Source of the DNA: Roseibium algicola
GTDB lineage: Bacteria; Pseudomonadota; Alphaproteobacteria; Rhizobiales; Stappiaceae
Reading direction: 5' to 3'
Assembly: GCF_001999245.1 (NCBI RefSeq)
Contig: NZ_CP019630.1
Location: 3,439,001-3,503,000 of the forward strand
Length of the DNA stretch: 64,000 nt
Part shown: in pieces, positions 2,871 through 12,675 of the stretch
Position numbering within the stretch: position 1 is the stretch's first letter
Layout of the letters: every line of letters starts with the position of its first letter
Program-made: the position numbers and the translations under genes
Notes under the pieces: generated by a model
The model's input: the letters and a program-made list of their open reading frames with translations, nothing else
Database searches by the model: none
Told to the model about the DNA's origin: nothing

Positions 2871-5800
2871 TTATTCGGCGGCGACCATGCCGAGGCGCTG
2901 CTCTTCCATTTCGCGCAGGGCCCGGCGGTATTCGACCGGCATCACCTTGACGAACTTGGGCCGGTACTGGGTCCAGTTGTCGAGGATTGCCTCGGCCTTT
3001 GTCGAGCCGGTCAGTTCCAGATGTTTCGTCAGCATCTGGCGCAGGCGCTCATCGTCATGGCGGGTCATGTCGCAGGAAAGGTCCACGCGGCCCTTGTGCT
3101 CGATATCGCCACCATGGTGGTGCAGCTTCTCCAGAAGATCGTCTTCTTCGGTCACCGGTTCCAGTTCGACCATGGCCAGGTTGCAGCGGGAGCCGAATGT
3201 GCCGTCTTCATCGAGCACATAGGCAATGCCGCCGGACATGCCGGCCGCGAAGTTGCGTCCGGTCTGGCCGATCACGACGACGACGCCGCCGGTCATGTAT
3301 TCGCAGCCGTGGTCACCCACGCCTTCGACAACGGCAACAGCGCCGGAGTTGCGAACTGCAAAGCGTTCCCCGGCAACACCGCGGAAGTAGCATTCACCTT
3401 CGGTTGCGCCGTAGAGCACCGTGTTGCCGACAATGATCGAGTTTTCCGGCACGATCCGGGTGTTCTCCGGTGGGCGGACGATCAGCTTGCCACCGGCAAG
3501 ACCCTTGCCGACATAGTCGTTGGCATCGCCGACAAGATCAATGGTGACGCCGCGGGCGACGAAGGCGCCGAACGCCTGGCCTGCCGTACCCTTCAGATTG
3601 ATCTTCAGGGTGTCGGGGTGTTTCAGGCCCTTGTTGCCGTACCGCTTGGCGATTTCACCGGAGAGCATGGCACCAACCGACCGGTCGACGGAACAGATCG
3701 TCTCGTCGACAATTGTCGGTTCCTTGCTGTCCAGGGCCGGCTTGGAAGCGGCAATCAGGCGACGGTCCAGGATGTCGTGGATCGGGTGATCCTGACGCGT
3801 CGTCCAGCGGGTCTCTTCCGGTTTTGCTTCCGGCTGGAAGAAAATACGGGAGAAATCGAGACCCTTGGCCTTCCAGTGATCGATCGCGGCTTCCTTGTCG
3901 AGGAAGTCGGACCGGCCAATCATGTCTTCCATCGTTTTGAAGCCGAGGTTGGCCATCAGCTCGCGCACTTCTTCGGCGACGAAGAAGAAGTAGTTGATGA
4001 CGTGTTCCGGGGTGCCCTTGAAGCGCTTGCGCAGGACCGGGTCCTGGGTCGCGATGCCGACCGGGCAGGTGTTGAGATGGCACTTGCGCATCATCAGGCA
4101 GCCCGCGGCAATCAGCGGAGCGGTCGAGAAGCCGAATTCGTCGGCACCAAGAAGCGCACCGATGATGACGTCCCGGCCTGTGCGGATGCCGCCGTCGACC
4201 TGAAGGGCGATGCGCGAGCGCAGTCCGTTCAGCACCAGGGTCTGCTGGGTTTCAGCAAGGCCGATTTCCCAGGGAGAGCCGGCGTGTTTGATCGAGGTCA
4301 GCGGTGATGCACCGGTACCGCCGTCGTAACCGGAAATCGTGATGTGGTCTGCGCGTGCCTTGGCAACGCCGGCAGCAACCGTTCCGACCCCCACTTCCGA
4401 CACCAGCTTGACCGAGATATCGGCTTCCGGGTTGACGTTTTTCAGGTCGTAGATCAGCTGCGCCAGATCTTCGATGGAGTAGATGTCATGGTGCGGCGGG
4501 GGCGAAATCAGGCCGACGCCCGGGGTCGAGTGACGCACCTTGGCGATAACCGCATCCACCTTGTGACCCGGCAACTGGCCGCCTTCGCCGGGCTTTGCAC
4601 CCTGGGCGACCTTAATCTGGATCATGTCGGAGTTGACCAGATATTCCGTGGTCACGCCGAAGCGGCCGGAAGCAACCTGCTTGATGGCGGAGCGCTGCGG
4701 GTTGGACGAGCCGTCCGGCAACGGATTGAAGCGCTCCGGCTCCTCGCCGCCTTCACCGGTGTTCGACTTGCCGCCGATCTGGTTCATGGCGATTGCCAGG
4801 GTCGTGTGAGCTTCACGCGAAATCGAGCCGAAGGACATGGCGCCGGTGACGAAGCGCTTGACGATGGCTTCTGCGGGTTCCACCTGGTCGAGCGCGATCG
4901 GCGAGCGGCCGATTTCGTCCGCGGACTTGATCCGGAACAGGCCGCGGATCGCGTAGCGTCCGCTCTTTTCGTTCACTTCCTTGGCGAAGGCGCGATAGGT
5001 GTCCGGGAGCTTCGCGCGCACTGCATGCTGCAGCAGCGCGACGGAGTCCGGGGTCCACATATGGCTTTCACCGCGAGTCCGGTAAGCGTATTCACCGCCA
5101 ACTTCCAGCGAGCGGCGCAGGATGGCGACGTCGCCGAAGGCCTGCTCGTGGCGCAGAACGGTTTCATCGGCGACTTCGGCAAGGCCGATGCCTTCGATCA
5201 TGGTTGCCGTGCCGAAGAAGTACTTCTTCACGAAGGACGAGCCGAGACCGACAGCGTCGAAAATCTGCGCGCCGCAATAGGACTGGTAGGTCGAAATGCC
5301 CATCTTGGACATGACCTTGAGGATGCCCTTGTCGATGGACTTGATGTAGCGATAGACGACTTCGTCCTGATCGACTTCCTCCGGGAAGTCCATTTCCATG
5401 TGCATGGAAAGCAGCGTTTCAAACGCGAGATAAGGGTTGATCGCTTCCGCGCCATAGCCGGCCAGAACACAGAAATGGTGGACTTCGCGCGCTTCACCGG
5501 TTTCCACCACCAGGCCAACAGAGGTTCTCAGACCCTTGCGGATGAGGTGATGGTGCACGGCAGCGGTTGCCAGCAGCGCCGGGATCGCGATGCGTGAGCG
5601 GCTGATCAGGCGATCGGACAGGATGATGATGTTGTATCCGTCCAGAACCGCTTTTTCTGCGCGCTCGCACAATTCGTCGAGAGCGCCTTCCATACCGACA
5701 GCGCCTTTTTCGGAATTGTAGGTGATGTCCAGCGTCTTGGCGGAGAACTGGTTGTCGGCGATGTCGCCGATGGCGCGGATCTTCTCAAGGTCCTCATTGG

Positions 5801-7547
5801 TGAGGATCGGCTGGCGCACTTCCAGGCGCTTGGAGGTCGACAGGCCTTCAAGGTCGAAGATGTTCGGACGCGGGCCGATGAAGGAGACAAGGCTCATCAC
5901 CAGCTCCTCGCGGATCGGGTCGATCGGCGGGTTGGTGACCTGAGCGAAGTTCTGCTTGAAGTAGGTGTAAAGCAGCTTGGACTTGTCGGAGAGCGCTGAA
6001 ATCGGCGTGTCCGTGCCCATGGAGCCGATGGCTTCCTGGCCGACGGTTGCCATCGGCGTCATCAGAAGCTTGATGTCTTCTTCCGTGTAGCCGAAGGCCT
6101 GCTGGCGGTCGAGAAGGCTTTCGCCGGCTACCGGCGCGCGCTGGCGCACGCCCGGAAGGTCTTCCAGTACGATCTGGGACCGGTGCAGCCAGTCCTTGTA
6201 CGGGTTGGCCGTGGAAAGCTGCCGCTTGATTTCGTCGTCGGAAACGATCCGGCCTTCGTCCATGTCGATCAGCAGCATCTTGCCCGGCTGCAGACGCCAT
6301 TTCTGGACAATGCGCTCTTCTTCGACCGGCAGGACGCCAACCTCGGAAGACATGATGACGAAGTCGTCGTCAGTAACGATGTAGCGGGCAGGACGCAGGC
6401 CGTTCCGGTCCAGCGTTGCGCCGATCTGGCGGCCATCGGTGAAGGCAACGGCTGCCGGGCCGTCCCACGGCTCCATCAGGGCCGCGTGGTATTCGTAGAA
6501 GGCACGACGGTTGTCGTCCATCAGCGGGTTGCCGGCCCAGGCTTCCGGGATCAGCATCATGGCCGCATGGGCGAGCGAATAACCACCCATGACCAGGAAC
6601 TCGAGGGCGTTGTCGAAGCAGGCTGTGTCCGACTGGCCTTCATAGGAAATCGGCCAGAGCTTGGAGATGTCGTCGCCGAGCAGCGCCGACGATACGGACG
6701 CCTGACGCGCCGCCATCCAGTTGACGTTGCCGCGCAGCGTGTTGATCTCACCGTTGTGCGCAACCATCCTGTAGGGGTGCGACAGATCCCAGGACGGGAA
6801 CGTGTTGGTGGAAAAACGCTGGTGGACAAGGGCCAGGGCCGACGAAAAGCGCTCGTCCTTCAGGTCGGCGTAATAGGCACCAAGCTGATAGGCGAGGAAC
6901 ATGCCTTTGTAGACAATGGTCCGGCTGGACATTGAAACGATATAAAAGCCTTTCGAAACCGCATCGGTTTCGGCACGCACACGGTTCGAGATGACCTTGC
7001 GCAGTACATAAAGGCGGCGTTCGAAGGCATCTGCCTCACCGCCGGTCTTGCGGATGAAGACCTGACGGGAAACCGGTTCGGTGGCAGCGATGTCAGGTGC
7101 CTTGGAAAGCGATGAATTGTCGACGGGCACGTCACGCCAGCCAATCAGTTCCTTGCCTTCGTCTTCAATGACACGCTCGACGATGGCTTCGCACTTGGCG
7201 CGCAGCTCATCATCCTGCGGCATGAAGATGAAACCGACACCATATTCACCGGCATCGGGAAGCGGTGTGCCGGCGTTCGCGAGTTCTTCTGCAAAGAACG
7301 CGTGCGGGATCTGCACCAGCATGCCTGCGCCATCGCCCATCAACGGGTCGGCACCAACCGCGCCGCGGTGCGTGAGGTTTTCAAGAACCTGCAGACCGTC
7401 GGCAATAATCTTGTGGGACTTCTCGCCTTTCATGTGGGCGACAAAGCCGACACCGCAGGCGTCGTGTTCGCGCGACGGATTATAGAGCCCTTTGTCGGCG
7501 GCCGTGCTCAGTCGTTCCGCAAGTGTAGCGGTTGCGGTGGTCTTCAT
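2871..7547 (-). CDS. gltB: Glutamate synthase large subunit
   Basis: About 1558 aa from this start, the normal size for bacterial GltB. Order of domains: class II glutaminase (catalytic Cys in DACGVGF, exposed after removal of a 30-residue propeptide), central domain, FMN-binding synthase domain with a 3Fe-4S site CHLNTCPVG, and a C-terminal beta-helix (GXXGXXXG-like repeats near GGDIEHKG). It makes glutamate from ammonia-derived glutamine and, with glutamine synthetase, is the main ammonia-assimilation route. The start ATG at 7547 has GGGAG 7 nt upstream. An alternative ATG at 7601 has GAGGG 5 nt upstream and would add 18 residues; the frame stays open to 7733. Followed by gltD as an operon. 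Confidence 0.95.
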
Positions 7548-8215
7548 GTCCACGCTCCCAGCTTGCATGGCTGTGCTCGTCGTCAGCTCTATCTTCGTCA
7601 TGTGCGCCCTCACTGTTGACCCCAGTGCCGCCGTGGCTGGGAGCGTCCGGTTCCGTTCGGGTCGCATTCCATCAAGAATGCGGTCCGGCGAACCCTGGCT
7701 TTCCTGCCCCGGCTCTGTTGTTGTATTAACCACGGCCGTTTATCAAAGCAAACCGCCGCATTGACGCAGCGGTCCTCCGCTGCCGAAACGTTCCGTCTCG
7801 CTTCCTTGCGGATCCTCCCCGGATCCGCCCAGTGGTCAGCCTGGCTATCACCGATGCCTTTTTGTCCTGCGCCCTGTCCGGGCCGTTTTGGGCATGGCGA
7901 TAATTGGGACAGCATACCTGTCCTATTCCAAGCGGCGCGAACATGACAGATTTCGCCGTCGTGAGCAAGAGTGTTTCTGCGTCGCCGCATTATAATTGTT
8001 TCGCGCGAAAAGTGCCAATCGTCCGGAAAGGTCAAAACCGACGATAAATATGTAAGAATCTTGCGTTTGTTAAACTTTGTGCAGTTATGCTCGCAAAACA
8101 GTCACATGCGTTTGATTTCCTATTTATCTTCAATAGGGTCATCTACGGTGGGTGACTGGCGGCCCAGCAAAAACGCCGGTACGCAGTGATTTTTCAACGA
8201 CGAGAGGAGATCGAG
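7548..8215. other. Intergenic region between divergent gltB and bufferin genes
   Basis: 668 nt between divergently read genes. The half nearest gltB is GC-rich, its frames do not resemble protein, and some of it could be N-terminal extension of GltB if the ATG at 7601 is used. The half nearest the bufferin cassette (about 7970-8150) is clearly AT-richer and holds the promoter-like elements for both directions. No RNA gene or conserved riboswitch was recognised. Confidence 0.5.
7989..8018 (-). promoter_or_regulatory. Candidate sigma-70 promoter toward gltB, palindromic spacer
   Basis: On the minus strand TTGGCA and a perfect TATAAT are 18 nt apart. The spacer contains the 12-bp palindrome TTTCGCGCGAAA (7999-8010), a possible operator. 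Initiation here would give gltB an untranslated leader of roughly 400 nt. Prediction from motif match only. Confidence 0.45.
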
Positions 8216-8515
8216 ATGAAGCATAAGGCCATGTCTGCAGCAATTGTTGCCGGTGCGGTGGCAACCGCGGTTGCGGGTCTGTCGTCAACCGTTCCGGCCC
8301 ACGCCCAGGCCAAGGAAAAATGCTATGGTGTGTCCCTGAAAGGTCAGAACGACTGCAAGGCGGGTGCAGGTACGACTTGCGCCGGTACGTCGACCGTCGA
8401 CTATCAGGGCAACGCCTGGACCCTCGTTCCGAAGGGCACCTGCGTGACGATGGATGTTCCTGGTGGCCGTCACGGCTCTTTGACCGAACTTACGCGCGAC
8501 CTGCCGGAAGCCTGA
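8216..8515 (+). CDS. bufA1: Bufferin-type RiPP metallophore precursor (DUF2282, BufA1 type)
   Basis: 99 aa. An unusually long peptide precursor with a Sec signal peptide (hydrophobic residues about 7-25, cleavage likely after AHA at residue 30) followed by a core with exactly four cysteines, C36, C47, C55 and C76, in the DUF2282 pattern [28 protein letters not shown]. In characterised bufferins and their Haemophilus HvfA relatives, the MNIO enzyme oxidises core cysteines to thiooxazoles and the exported product binds copper or other metals. The ATG at 8216 follows AGAGGAGA at good spacing; the frame continues upstream to 8186 without a better site. The modification enzymes follow directly, which supports the assignment. 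Confidence 0.92.
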
Positions 8516-8542
8516 TAGGCTTCAGACGGCCGCAACTGCGGC
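8507..8542 (+). other. Tandem stem-loops at the bufA1 stop codon
   Basis: Two perfect hairpins in a row: GAAGCCT/AGGCTTC (8507-8523, 7 bp, overlapping the stop codon) and GCCGC/GCGGC (8529-8542, 5 bp). No T-run follows, so transcription probably continues into bufB1. Such elements after a small precursor gene often protect the upstream message so that precursor exceeds enzyme; that use is inferred. Confidence 0.5.
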
Positions 8543-8705
8543 AATCTGGTCAGGCAGGCACCTGCTTATCCCGCACTTGGTGCCGAGGCGGGCAGGGTGC
8601 CAGCCCTTTCAAAGTCATGAGCCATGGTGCTTCAGTCAGCCCAGTCTGAAGATGTCCTCAGCCAGTGTGCCTGCCTGACAAAACTTATTCCACCCGGAGG
8701 GCTCC

Positions 8706-9602
8706 ATGGTTTCCGATACCCGATCAAACCCGGTTCAGCGCTGCGAGGCGGCTGTTCCCGCGCGCGCCGGAGCCGGTCTGAAGCCGGAGCATGTCGCGGC
8801 TATTCTGGAAACGTCCGCGGATATCGGTTTTTTTGAAGTTCATGCCGAAAACTACATGGGGGGCGGCGGTCCGCCGCACCGGCAACTGGAGGCAATCCGC
8901 GAGCGGTATCCCCTGTCTCTTCATGGTGTCGGTCTTTCGATCGGCGGTGAACAGCCACTGGACAAGGATCACCTGCGGCGCTTGTCAGACCTGAACAAGC
9001 GATATGAGCCGGGACTGTTTTCCGAGCATCTGGCATGGTCGACGCACGACACGACTTATTTCAACGACCTGTTGCCGGTGCCCTATGACGAAGCCACGCT
9101 GAACCGTGTGTGCGATCACATAGATGAAGTGCAGGAGACCGTCGGACGGCAGATGCTTCTGGAAAATCCTTCGACTTACGTCGCCTTTGCACAGAGCACG
9201 ATGAGCGAACTGGATTTTCTGAGCGAGATCGCGCGCCGGACCGGCTGTGGCCTGTTGCTCGACATCAACAACGTGCATGTGTCCTGCACGAACCACGAGA
9301 GATCTGCCACAGACTATCTTGCCGCCTTCCCGATGGCTGCCGTCGGTGAAATACATCTGGGCGGTCATGCCCCTGACCGGGATGACGCTGGCCGGCCATT
9401 GTTGATCGACGCGCACGACCGGGAGGTGGATCTTGCGGTCTGGCAGCTTTATGAAGATGTCATTCGTTTACAGGGGCCGCTGCCGACCCTGATCGAGTGG
9501 GACAACAATGTTCCTGCCTGGCCGGTTCTGCTTGCCGAGGCACAAGCCGCGGATCGCATTCTGGCGCAGCCTGCAGAGGCTGGCAGAAAGCAAGCAGTCT
9601 GA
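8706..9602 (+). CDS. bufB1: MNIO family multinuclear iron oxidative enzyme (DUF692), bufferin maturase
   Basis: 298 aa TIM-barrel enzyme of the DUF692 family, which uses two or three iron ions and oxygen to rearrange cysteines in a peptide substrate. Visible family blocks: [11 protein letters not shown] at the N-terminus, [55 protein letters not shown] and IEWDNNVP; their His, Glu, Asp and Asn residues are the expected iron ligands. The ATG is preceded by GGAGG with 5 nt spacing. It lies 190 nt after the precursor gene and one base before bufC1, so enzyme and partner are translated together. Assignment to the BufB/HvfB branch rests on the neighbours. Confidence 0.93.
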
Positions 9603-9603
9603 C

Positions 9604-10389
9604 ATGCGTGGTCCGCTGTCCCTGTCGCAGGTCAATGCCGCCTCGTTTGGGCGTGCGCTGCTCGACCCGCAAATGGCAACGCCCGATGGACTGACTGGTC
9701 CGGACGGAGAAACGGCGCCGAAGCGATTCAATGTCTACCGCAACAACGTCATCGTCAGTCTGTGCGAAGCGCTCGGTGAAAGCTTTCCTGCGGTGAAGGC
9801 GCTGTTGGGGGAAGAGTATTTCAGGGCGCTTGCCCAGGCCTTCGTGACAGCTCATCCGCCGGTGTCGCCCGTGTTGATCTGGTACGGCGCCGGTTTCGCC
9901 GATTTCCTGGACGCGTTTCCGCCTCTCAAGGCATATCCTTATCTCGGCGATGTTGCCCGGCTGGAATGGTCTTGGCTCCAGGCCTATCATGCTGCGGATG
10001 CCGCGCCTCTCGATCCGGCAATCCTGGGCAGCATCGATCCGCAAAGACTCGGGCGCGTTCGCTTCGTACCGCATCCGGCGGCGCACGTCGTGACATCTGC
10101 CTGGCCGATCTGGGCGATTGCGCGAGCCAACAGGTTTGAACCCGATGGGGCTGAAGCTGTCGATCTTGACGAGCCGCAATCGGTAATGATCACCCGGCCG
10201 GACATGGAAGTGGATGTCTATCTGCTGCGTCCGGGCGGGGCTGTTTTCACGATGGATCTCCTGCAAGGGCAGACGCTTGCAGCGGCGGCAAGCCGGGCTC
10301 AGGAGGACGACGACGGTTTTTCCTTGTCCGATTGCCTTTCGGACTGTCTTGCAGCTGGTGCATTTTCCGCCCTGCAACTGGATGACTAA
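9604..10389 (+). CDS. bufC1: DUF2063 family partner of the MNIO enzyme (BufC/HvfC type)
   Basis: 261 aa. The N-terminal half is a DUF2063 domain with the family blocks FNVYRNNV, ALGESFPAVKALLG, PPVSPVLIWYG, YPYLGDVARLEWSW; the C-terminal half is a second, RRE-like domain. In related systems this protein binds the precursor leader or signal peptide and presents it to the MNIO enzyme. The ATG lies one base after the bufB1 stop codon and has no strong ribosome binding site of its own, which points to translational coupling. A longer in-frame reading from 9508 would overlap bufB1 by about 95 nt and is unlikely. Confidence 0.9.
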   Translation: MRGPLSLSQVNAASFGRALLDPQMATPDGLTGPDGETAPKRFNVYRNNVIVSLCEALGESFPAVKALLGEEYFRALAQAFVTAHPPVSPVLIWYGAGFADFLDAFPPLKAYPYLGDVARLEWSWLQAYHAADAAPLDPAILGSIDPQRLGRVRFVPHPAAHVVTSAWPIWAIARANRFEPDGAEAVDLDEPQSVMITRPDMEVDVYLLRPGGAVFTMDLLQGQTLAAAASRAQEDDDGFSLSDCLSDCLAAGAFSALQLDD

Positions 10390-10432
10390 CACGCATGCGG
10401 CAAATGGATGCCGCTTGATCATGGGGGATTAG

Positions 10433-11017
10433 ATGGGTGTGTTGATTGGGTTTTTTGTCAGGCTCTACACGATGGTGTTCGGAGCTCTGGAACGGCTGAC
10501 AAATGGCTGGTTCATCGGGCTTGCTGCCCGGTTCATTTTTGCCGCGATCCTGCTGCAGTTCTTCCTGAACTCGGCGATGACGAAAATCGGCGGCAACATC
10601 ATGAACATCTTCACGCCAACCGCAGGTGCCTATGCGCAGATGCTGCCCAAGATGATGGAGCAGGTCAGCTACGACACCAGCCAGATTGCGTTCTTCCCGT
10701 ATGGTCTCATGGTGCTTCTGGGCACCTGGGGTGAATTTGTCCTGCCGGTGATGGTGGTTGTCGGTCTATTCACCCGCTTCGCCAGCCTCGGCATGATCGT
10801 CTTCATCTGCGTCATGACCTATGTCGACATCTATGGCCATGGGGCTGATGCAAAGACGATCGGGGCGCTGTTCGACGGTGAACCCTATGCGATCATCGCC
10901 GATGACCGGTTGCTCTGGATCTTCCTGTTGCTGGTGCCGGTGCTCAAGGGGCCGGGTGTCGTCTCGCTGGACTGGCTGCTCGGCCGGTCCTATCGCAAGC
11001 GCGAGATGTACTACTGA
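10433..11017 (+). CDS. DoxX family inner-membrane protein of the bufferin cassette
   Basis: 194 aa with four hydrophobic segments: about 28-47, 85-110, 115-132 and 157-175. This is the DoxX fold, here with the longer N-terminus seen in cassettes that follow DUF692-DUF2063 genes. DoxX proteins of these operons are thought to link the system to redox chemistry at the membrane, but their exact role is not settled. It starts 43 nt after bufC1 behind GGGGGA, so it is probably cotranscribed. No terminator is visible between it and the following aldolase gene. Confidence 0.88.
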   Translation: MGVLIGFFVRLYTMVFGALERLTNGWFIGLAARFIFAAILLQFFLNSAMTKIGGNIMNIFTPTAGAYAQMLPKMMEQVSYDTSQIAFFPYGLMVLLGTWGEFVLPVMVVVGLFTRFASLGMIVFICVMTYVDIYGHGADAKTIGALFDGEPYAIIADDRLLWIFLLLVPVLKGPGVVSLDWLLGRSYRKREMYY

Positions 11018-11060
11018 AAAATCGGTTGCCGGTTGTGATGCCAAGTGATTAAACCGGCAC

Positions 11061-12119
11061 ATGAATTTTGCCAGTGACAATTGGGCGGGTGCGGCTCCGG
11101 CGGTGATGTCGGCGCTGGCCCGCCATAATGACGGGTTCTCGCCGGCCTACGGCACCGACCCGTTGACCGATTCCGTCTCCGCCACGTTCAACGAGATCTT
11201 CGAACGCGAGGTTGCCGTCTTCTTCGTGGCGACCGGTTCAGCGGCGAATTCTTTGGCGCTGGCTTCCTGTGCCAAGCCGGGCGGGGCGATCTTCTGCCAT
11301 TCCGGTGCGCATATTCAGGTTGATGAATGCAATTGTCCCGAGTTCATGACCGGCGGCAACAAGCTGTTGAGCGTGAAGGGACCAAACGGCCGGTTCTCCG
11401 CCGATGCCCTTCGCGAAAAGATGGCACAGGTTCCTGACGGTGTTGTCCACCATGGTCAGGTCGCATCCGTTTCCATCAGCCAGGCAACCGAATGCGGCAC
11501 CGTCTATACGCTGGATGAAATCGGCGCGATCAAGGATGTCTGCCGGTCCCGTTCGGTGCCGCTTCACATGGACGGCGCACGATTTGCCAATGCGCTTGTG
11601 ACGCTCGGCTGTTCGGCAGCCGACATGACATGGAAAGCGGGGGTGGACCTGCTTTCCTTCGGAGCCACCAAAAACGGCTGCTGGTGCGCGGAGGCCGTGG
11701 TTTTCTTTGATCTGGACGCCGCAAAATCCTTTGAGTATTTCCGCAAGCGCGGCGGTCATCTTTTCTCCAAGAGCCGCTTCGTGGCGGCCCAGTTCGAAGG
11801 CTATTTCCAGGATGACACCTGGCTGACGACCGCAAGCCACGCCAACGGCATGGCGACCCGTCTTGCTGAAGGCATTAGGCAGGCCGGAGGGCGTACTGCC
11901 TGGGCGGTGGAAGCCAATGAACTGTTCCCGATCCTGAAACGCAGCCAGATGGAAGCGCTTCAGGCGGCCGGTGCCAAGCTCTATGAATGGCCGGCAGAGG
12001 GCCTCGCCGAAGGCCACGCCCCGGCGTCGGACGAAGTCTGTGTACGTCTCGTCACCAGTTTCGCAACGACGGATGAAGACGTCGATGCGTTTTTGAAAGT
12101 GCTGTCCGGGACGGTCTGA
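11061..12119 (+). CDS. ltaE: Low-specificity L-threonine aldolase
   Basis: 352 aa PLP-dependent fold-type I enzyme that splits threonine or allo-threonine to glycine and acetaldehyde. Visible blocks: FASDNWAG at the N-terminus, ATGSAANSLAL (cofactor phosphate site), HMDGARFANAL and SFGATKNG, whose Lys is the Schiff-base residue. The family's usual length is about 340-350. It starts 43 nt after the DoxX gene with a weak ribosome binding site and could be read through from the bufferin operon; I see no functional link. It converges with the hsp20 gene. Confidence 0.9.
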   Translation: MNFASDNWAGAAPAVMSALARHNDGFSPAYGTDPLTDSVSATFNEIFEREVAVFFVATGSAANSLALASCAKPGGAIFCHSGAHIQVDECNCPEFMTGGNKLLSVKGPNGRFSADALREKMAQVPDGVVHHGQVASVSISQATECGTVYTLDEIGAIKDVCRSRSVPLHMDGARFANALVTLGCSAADMTWKAGVDLLSFGATKNGCWCAEAVVFFDLDAAKSFEYFRKRGGHLFSKSRFVAAQFEGYFQDDTWLTTASHANGMATRLAEGIRQAGGRTAWAVEANELFPILKRSQMEALQAAGAKLYEWPAEGLAEGHAPASDEVCVRLVTSFATTDEDVDAFLKVLSGTV

Positions 12120-12228: not shown

Positions 12229-12675
12229 CTAGTGAGCCGTGGTTTCGATCTGCTTGGTTTCACCACTGGTGATTTCGATCTTGCGCGGCTTCATGGCTTC
12301 CGGGATTTCCCGAACAAGATCAACGTGCAGCAAGCCGTTTTCGAGGCTTGCCCCTTCCACGCGAACATGTTCGGCAATCTGGAAGCGGCGTTCAAAGGTG
12401 CGCGAGGCAATGCCGCGGTAGAGAATTTCCCGGCTGGCATCTTCTTCAGCTTTTTCACCCTTGATGGTGAGTGTGTGCTCCTTGGCTTCGACGCTCAGTT
12501 CGTCGTCGGAGAAGCCTGCCACGGCCATCGTGATGCGGTAGGCGTTTTCGCCCGTGCGCTCGATGTTATAGGGCGGATAGCTCGGCGCTTCGTTGCCGGC
12601 GGCATCGAGCATCGAGAAAAGCCGGTCGAAACCGACGGTGGAGCGGTAAAGCGGAGAAAAGTCGAAGTGACGCAT
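12229..12675 (-). CDS. Small heat-shock protein, Hsp20/alpha-crystallin family
   Basis: 148 aa, IbpA-like. The alpha-crystallin domain covers about residues 36-125: it opens with YPPYNIERTGENAYRI, includes AVAGF and the AKEHTLTIKG strand, and ends with the ASLENGLLHVDLVREIPE segment. A short C-terminal tail follows (PRKIEI, the I-x-I-like contact). The protein holds unfolding proteins under heat stress for refolding by DnaK/ClpB. The start ATG is preceded by GAGAGGA at 7 nt, and that site is embedded in a small hairpin that resembles a ROSE thermometer, so control is probably at translation. Confidence 0.93.
   Translation of the reverse strand: MRHFDFSPLYRSTVGFDRLFSMLDAAGNEAPSYPPYNIERTGENAYRITMAVAGFSDDELSVEAKEHTLTIKGEKAEEDASREILYRGIASRTFERRFQIAEHVRVEGASLENGLLHVDLVREIPEAMKPRKIEITSGETKQIETTAH

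Follow-up and report, generated by a model that had tools for sequence, protein, structure and literature searches.

A Probable Buf1 Bufferin Operon of Roseibium algicola and a Predicted, Covarying Hairpin between Its Precursor and Maturase Genes

Introduction

Does the four-gene cassette at positions 8216-11017 of a 64,000-nucleotide stretch of Roseibium algicola DNA (contig NZ_CP019630.1, positions 3,439,001 to 3,503,000; hereafter the window) encode a bufferin-type metallophore, to which class does it belong and how might its expression be adjusted? In the Buf1 model published in PMC12452194, as given in the accessible part of that paper, an MNIO enzyme and a DUF2063 partner protein turn the two central cysteines of a precursor into thiooxazoles, a disulfide joins the outer two cysteines and copper is chelated by the peptide after its export. 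The same source describes a strict bufABC order and protection against copper. Excerpts of PMC13097082 support a 5-thiooxazole for the class named "captophorins" and cite from other work an ordered copper binding by DUF2282 products.

Gene Content and Distribution of the Cassette

All four genes are located on the forward strand. The gene bufA1 (8216..8515) encodes a DUF2282 Buf1 precursor of 99 amino acids, bufB (8706..9602) an MNIO (DUF692) bufferin maturase of 298 amino acids, bufC (9604..10389) a DUF2063 partner protein of 261 amino acids and doxX (10433..11017) a DoxX-family membrane protein of 194 amino acids. A mechanical list of open reading frames had placed the start of bufA1 at GTG 8186 and that of bufC at ATG 9508. 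We chose ATG 8216 and position 9604 instead because full-length relatives possess 99 and 261 amino acids, respectively; the motif AGAGGAG immediately precedes the ATG at 8216. Only base 9603 separates the stop of bufB from the start of bufC. Thus, the gene calls reproduced the four-gene order and the one-base spacing that a sequence-only reading of this DNA had described.

That reading had proposed an HMM search against Pfam, and all four proteins scored above the respective cut-off. BufA1 reached 87.8 bits with DUF2282 (PF10048; cut-off 22.4), BufB 353.9 bits with MbnB_TglH_ChrH (cut-off 25), BufC 93.6 bits with DUF2063 (cut-off 27.2) and DoxX, in a narrow pass, 27.6 bits with DoxX (cut-off 23.6). 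The NCBIfam model MNIO_BufB (NF050167) yielded 388.5 bits for BufB at a cut-off of 310. BufB is a sequence relative of PDB entry 3bww, of the DUF692 family chain 8hci and of MbnB chains, and its alignment with 3bww, a solved MNIO, covers motifs that, judged by eye, contain many His, Asp, Glu and Asn residues. A PDB sequence search with BufC returned no match; Buf1 partner proteins carry an RRE-type domain besides DUF2063. PHROGs, consulted with regard to a phage origin, gave no match for any of the four cassette proteins.

A genome-wide search found DUF2282, MNIO and DUF2063 in one copy each in the 6.65 Mb genome. The order bufA-bufB-bufC-doxX was common to all 36 Roseibium genus loci examined, the window included; consequently, the layout of the cassette is not due to chance. 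Of the 37 genomes searched within the genus, 36, the source genome among them, contained DUF2282; G023, an assembly of 680 contigs, did not. Across all 61 genomes searched it was detected in 51. In public records, proteins closely related to BufA1 already bear the name "BufA1 family periplasmic bufferin-type metallophore", and the best protein matches that carry an organism name come mostly from Roseibium, Labrenzia or Stappia, which marks the host as a Roseibium-type member of the Stappiaceae. Because of this occurrence throughout the genus and the existing BufA1 labels we regard the cassette as ordinary. It is very probably a Buf1 bufferin operon of the usual kind, an assignment supported by the family-defining features that were tested on the sequence.

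Divergently oriented upstream of bufA1 lies gltB (glutamate synthase; 2871-7733), present in 36/36 genus loci. A threonine-aldolase-like gene (11061-12119; 35/36) and an Hsp20 gene (12229-12675; 34/36) are located downstream; one of the 36 loci, L033, is a short contig. This complete setting around the bufferin genes was observed in 34 of the 36 genus loci and also in some other families. The neighbourhood is looser in 64 named loci outside Roseibium and Labrenzia, which were selected among the 80 best matches by locus number and record title and include some short contigs: with the proteins of the window as queries (E ≤ 1e-5, at which a distant DoxX may be missed) gltB was found in 9, the aldolase gene in 8 and doxX in 12 of them.

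A Predicted Hairpin in the bufA1-bufB Gap

A branched RNA fold is predicted for the 190 nt (8516..8705) that separate bufA1 from bufB. This gap contains a 13-nt perfect inverted repeat with the 5′ arm GTCAGGCAGGCAC at 8549..8561 and the 3′ arm GTGCCTGCCTGAC at 8667..8679, after which no T-run follows. The arms enclose an expanded loop of 105 nt (8562..8666). Folding of positions 8510-8710 gave a z of -2.53, and 2 of 200 shuffles were as stable. By inspection, only L034 and L057 possess a comparable expanded loop among the 36 genus loci; in relatives the same arms usually make a compact hairpin. Known RNA families gave no match in 7700-11100 up to E = 1. Within the loop lie a ATGGTGCTTCAG...TCTGAAG stretch, which is conserved, and part of an open reading frame (8624-8836) that overlaps bufB in another frame.

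A function as a classical terminator was rejected: a U-run is missing, and the three terminator-like sites, from a scan that performed no better than its shuffles, all lie outside 8516-8705. The absence of a U-run after the hairpin of the window favours RNA protection or processing over termination. The element is a GC-rich palindromic sequence, in the window with a loop about 100 nt wider, and it might instead be a DNA-level or dispersed palindromic repeat which has no role in the operon. The lack of a U-run suits that explanation, too. Against a dispersed repeat, the 190-nt gap sequence occurs once in the genome, and a strict hairpin pattern, too narrow for most known variants, gave six matches in 41 genomes, five of which lie at the DUF2282 site in the five mapped genomes and the sixth in the unmapped G064.

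Pairing in the relatives was examined in several ways. In a short-loop test of the 36 genus gaps, 21 scored better than every one of 40 simple shuffles, and at 1/40 or better the number rose to 24. For the other 12 at least two of 40 shuffles were as good; these include the expanded-loop gaps of the window, L034 and L057, for which 25, 26 and 32 of 40 shuffles, respectively, were as good. Consensus folding of 33 complete genus gaps with RNAalifold gave hardly any structure. Since whole gaps differ in length and align poorly, covariation was tested on 25 of the 36 genus hairpins instead, with bounds set by pairing score (L049 and L051 by hand, L064 trimmed). Left out were the window, L034 and L057 owing to the expanded loop, as well as L033, L040, L047, L048, L050, L054, L056 and L061, each a near-copy of a retained hairpin or with the stem out of register; L050, L054 and L061 have strong hairpins of other sequence.

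The 25 hairpins were 88.1% paired, a figure biased upward because the hairpins were selected and their bounds chosen by pairing. Changes on both sides of a pair, like the slid controls, carry a smaller upward bias. Such changes occurred in 5 of 12 pairs and 14 cells, compared with means of 2.0 pairs and 2.8 cells in shuffles and with at most 3 pairs and 0-4 cells in slid controls. The covariation score exceeded all 500 shuffles, which were uncorrected for relatedness. A measure of further pair types did not rise above the shuffles (132/500), and this result, together with the uncorrected relatedness, speaks in favour of the repeat. The retention of pairing through both-sides changes argues against it, and we consider a repeat with no operon role rather unlikely. 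We conclude that the predicted hairpin in the bufA-bufB gap is a covarying one across the genus.

Stable folds were also enriched in a broader set. Among 75 named loci, 33 gaps had z < -2 versus 6/75 coding and 5/75 upstream controls (one upstream control was not computable); the other 42 gaps were not below -2. Outside Roseibium and Labrenzia the corresponding numbers were 22/59 gaps versus 5 coding and 2 upstream controls. These 75 loci remained from 80 after removal of four gaps under 40 nt and one locus without a bufA match; each gap ended at the first aligned BufB residue and may include a few bufB codons.

In lantibiotic clusters an inverted repeat is found between the precursor and enzyme genes, and its hairpin limits downstream expression. 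The hairpin predicted here resembles these repeats in its position behind the precursor gene but has no U-run. Its probable role is to protect or trim the bufA1 part of the mRNA, which would provide the substrate in excess of the enzyme. With somewhat less than even confidence we extend this proposal to many bufferin operons, in which a selected post-precursor hairpin would ensure a high substrate to enzyme ratio; the branched loop of the window, enlarged by about 100 nt, could make it a regulable RNA. A literature search whose reach did not extend to the original bufferin paper yielded no mention of a hairpin in bufferin or DUF2282 operons, and neither "hairpin" nor "stem-loop" occurs in the text of PMC12452194.

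The Upstream Block and Control of the Operon

A promoter-like block upstream of bufA1, GTCACATGCGTTTGATTTCCTATT (8101..8124, forward strand), is conserved in the genus in the form GTCACNNNCGTTTGATTTCC-ATT. The exact sequence CGTTTGATTTCC was present in 33/36 genus loci, where it lies 104-113 nt ahead of the start of bufA, and was missing from L046, L047 and L048; some other families have weaker forms about as far from the gene. When up to 3 mismatches were allowed, the block matched the genome at a single site (G000:C1:3447101-3447124), and membership in a wider regulon was rejected on this basis. TTGATT within the block could be a -35 box. As the -10 region is poorly conserved, the block is likely used by an activator or another sigma factor. 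On the minus strand, TTGGCA-18-TATAAT (8018-7989) is probably the gltB promoter.

Sigma factor and NrsF genes accompany part of the Buf1 clusters and are not required. No match for NrsF was obtained in the genome at E ≤ 0.001, and no sigma or anti-sigma gene was found among the neighbouring genes scanned. A close counterpart is the Buf1 operon of Caulobacter vibrioides (CCNA_03363-03366; CC3254-CC3257), which, according to the accessible parts of PMC8224329 and PMC3511200, has the same order of DUF2282, DUF692/MNIO, DUF2063 and DoxX genes. According to excerpts of PMC8224329, copper induces the Caulobacter cluster under SigF control and a mutant in sigF is sensitive to copper. Several differences are evident: the sigma-F motif GTAACC-N16-CGAA differs from the GTCACNNNCGTTTGATTTCC block, Caulobacter has two sigma-F-dependent MNIO loci instead of one (both from excerpts of PMC3511200), and NrsF is part of the Caulobacter system. 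The single genomic occurrence of the block and the missing NrsF match indicate that control probably differs from that in Caulobacter. Without an NrsF match, moreover, neither sigma-F control nor induction by copper can be assumed here.

The Precursor, Its Cysteines and the Metal

BufA1 appears to start with a hydrophobic Sec-type leader, for which cleavage after AHA (residue 30) is likely when read by eye. Counting in the sequence located its cysteines at C36, C47, C55 and C76, exactly as the sequence-only reading had listed them, with C36/C76 as the outer and C47/C55 as the central pair. Their spacing of 10-7-20 was found unchanged in 117 of the 120 homologues listed (two have an extra cysteine and one is cut short) and in 60 of 66 precursors of named non-Roseibium loci. 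The loci L101, L145 and L148 possess two DUF2282 precursor genes ahead of one MNIO gene; the central cysteines have 6 residues between them in one precursor of each pair and 7 in the other.

Following the published model, BufA1 would be made in the cytoplasm and presented by BufC to the multi-iron enzyme BufB, which would oxidise C47 and C55 to thiooxazoles. The modified peptide would then be exported by Sec, C36 and C76 would close as a disulfide and mature BufA1 would buffer excess copper in the periplasm, with DoxX as an accessory membrane protein. The mRNA hairpin past the bufA1 stop would keep the substrate above the enzyme by protection or trimming of the bufA1 segment. The sequence-only reading had let the core cysteines in general be converted; by analogy to the model in PMC12452194, as described in its accessible part, this has to be corrected to a modification of C47/C55 only. 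We infer, likewise by analogy, that the thiooxazole chemistry and the copper role apply to the copy in the window, and nothing was found that contradicts the published bufferin model for this copy.

A bufferin-like product for gold, silver, zinc or iron, or one that serves in oxidative or sulfur stress and not in copper handling, is improbable but has some precedent. The gold-induced gig cluster of Cupriavidus metallidurans is likewise a bufferin cluster, by literature identification only (PMC12452194, in part); excerpts of PMC8224329 state that gold, silver and copper all induce it and that copper resistance is unaffected there. The Caulobacter cluster is also induced by chromate and cadmium (accessible part of PMC3511200). 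A genome with no NrsF match would be compatible with such a role. However, the cysteine spacing of the window's copy is the common one given above and none of its features points to another metal. Copper buffering stays the preferred role.

DUF2282 Proteins with Two Cysteines

A natural comparison was provided by a divergent DUF2282 protein of L083, which as a query matched 102 of the 397 genomes searched in the order. For 30 of the best matches the surrounding locus was retrieved. Eight of them (L167-L172, L175 and L176) encode proteins in which exactly the two central cysteines are missing and the outer pair is kept, for example QDDGS...VPGMSTVD versus NDC...TCAGTSTVD. The flanks of all eight (up to 1.5 kb; shorter downstream of L172 because of a contig end) contained no bufB, which was present in 22/22 fetched loci with the full cysteine set. 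L167 is the gene of L083 (L083:4238-4540) and L172 that of L084; bufB was also absent from L084, which stops at the contig end, and from L083, whose longer sequence covers about 4.9 kb downstream. Among 35 protein matches, 32 were devoid of the central cysteine pair (one of these is a fragment) and three contained it.

This pattern fits the central cysteine pair as the predicted target of the enzyme. The cases do not represent independent events because the lineages are related. A gltB gene adjoins six of the eight two-cysteine genes, and two genomes with such a protein (G044 and G047) carry an intact cassette elsewhere. No description of two-cysteine DUF2282 proteins was found in the literature searched, among the matches listed.

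Comparison with Other MNIO Systems

The sequence-only reading had termed the layout "bufferin/Hvf". The first half of this designation stands, given the DUF2282 precursor and the BufB model, and the second does not. BufB stayed under the cut-offs of the NCBIfam HvfB (232.1 bits; cut-off 360), ApyH, MbnB (44.7 bits; cut-off 325) and ChrH models, and the HvfC and HvfX models reached 50.2 of 142 and 20.7 of 80 bits, respectively. The oxazolin/fontiphorin captophorins (HvfABC-X) likewise combine an MNIO with a DUF2063 partner, frequently a DoxX protein and thiooxazole chemistry, as the accessible part of PMC13097082 reports. Their precursors carry EGKCG repeats, which are absent from BufA1. Hence, a Hvf/oxazolin or a methanobactin system, which would share the enzyme superfamily, the DUF2063 partner and DoxX with the cassette and to which the HvfB score lends a certain resemblance, can practically be dismissed, as the HvfB, HvfC and MbnB cut-offs were missed and the precursor family, DUF2282 with a signal peptide and without the repeats, refutes it. 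Assignment to the Buf2 bufferins, which possess 6 or 12 conserved cysteines, was rejected as well: BufA1 has four, and the BufA2 model gave 24.3 bits at a cut-off of 60.

Conclusions

As a bufferin operon the R. algicola cassette is one more member of a large known family. Its genome, in which NrsF had no match, is a place to seek a different metal-responsive control. The two-cysteine DUF2282 proteins with no adjacent MNIO gene may serve as evolutionary controls for which cysteines are modified. Finally, bufferin operons may set the ratio of peptide to enzyme by a conserved RNA hairpin.
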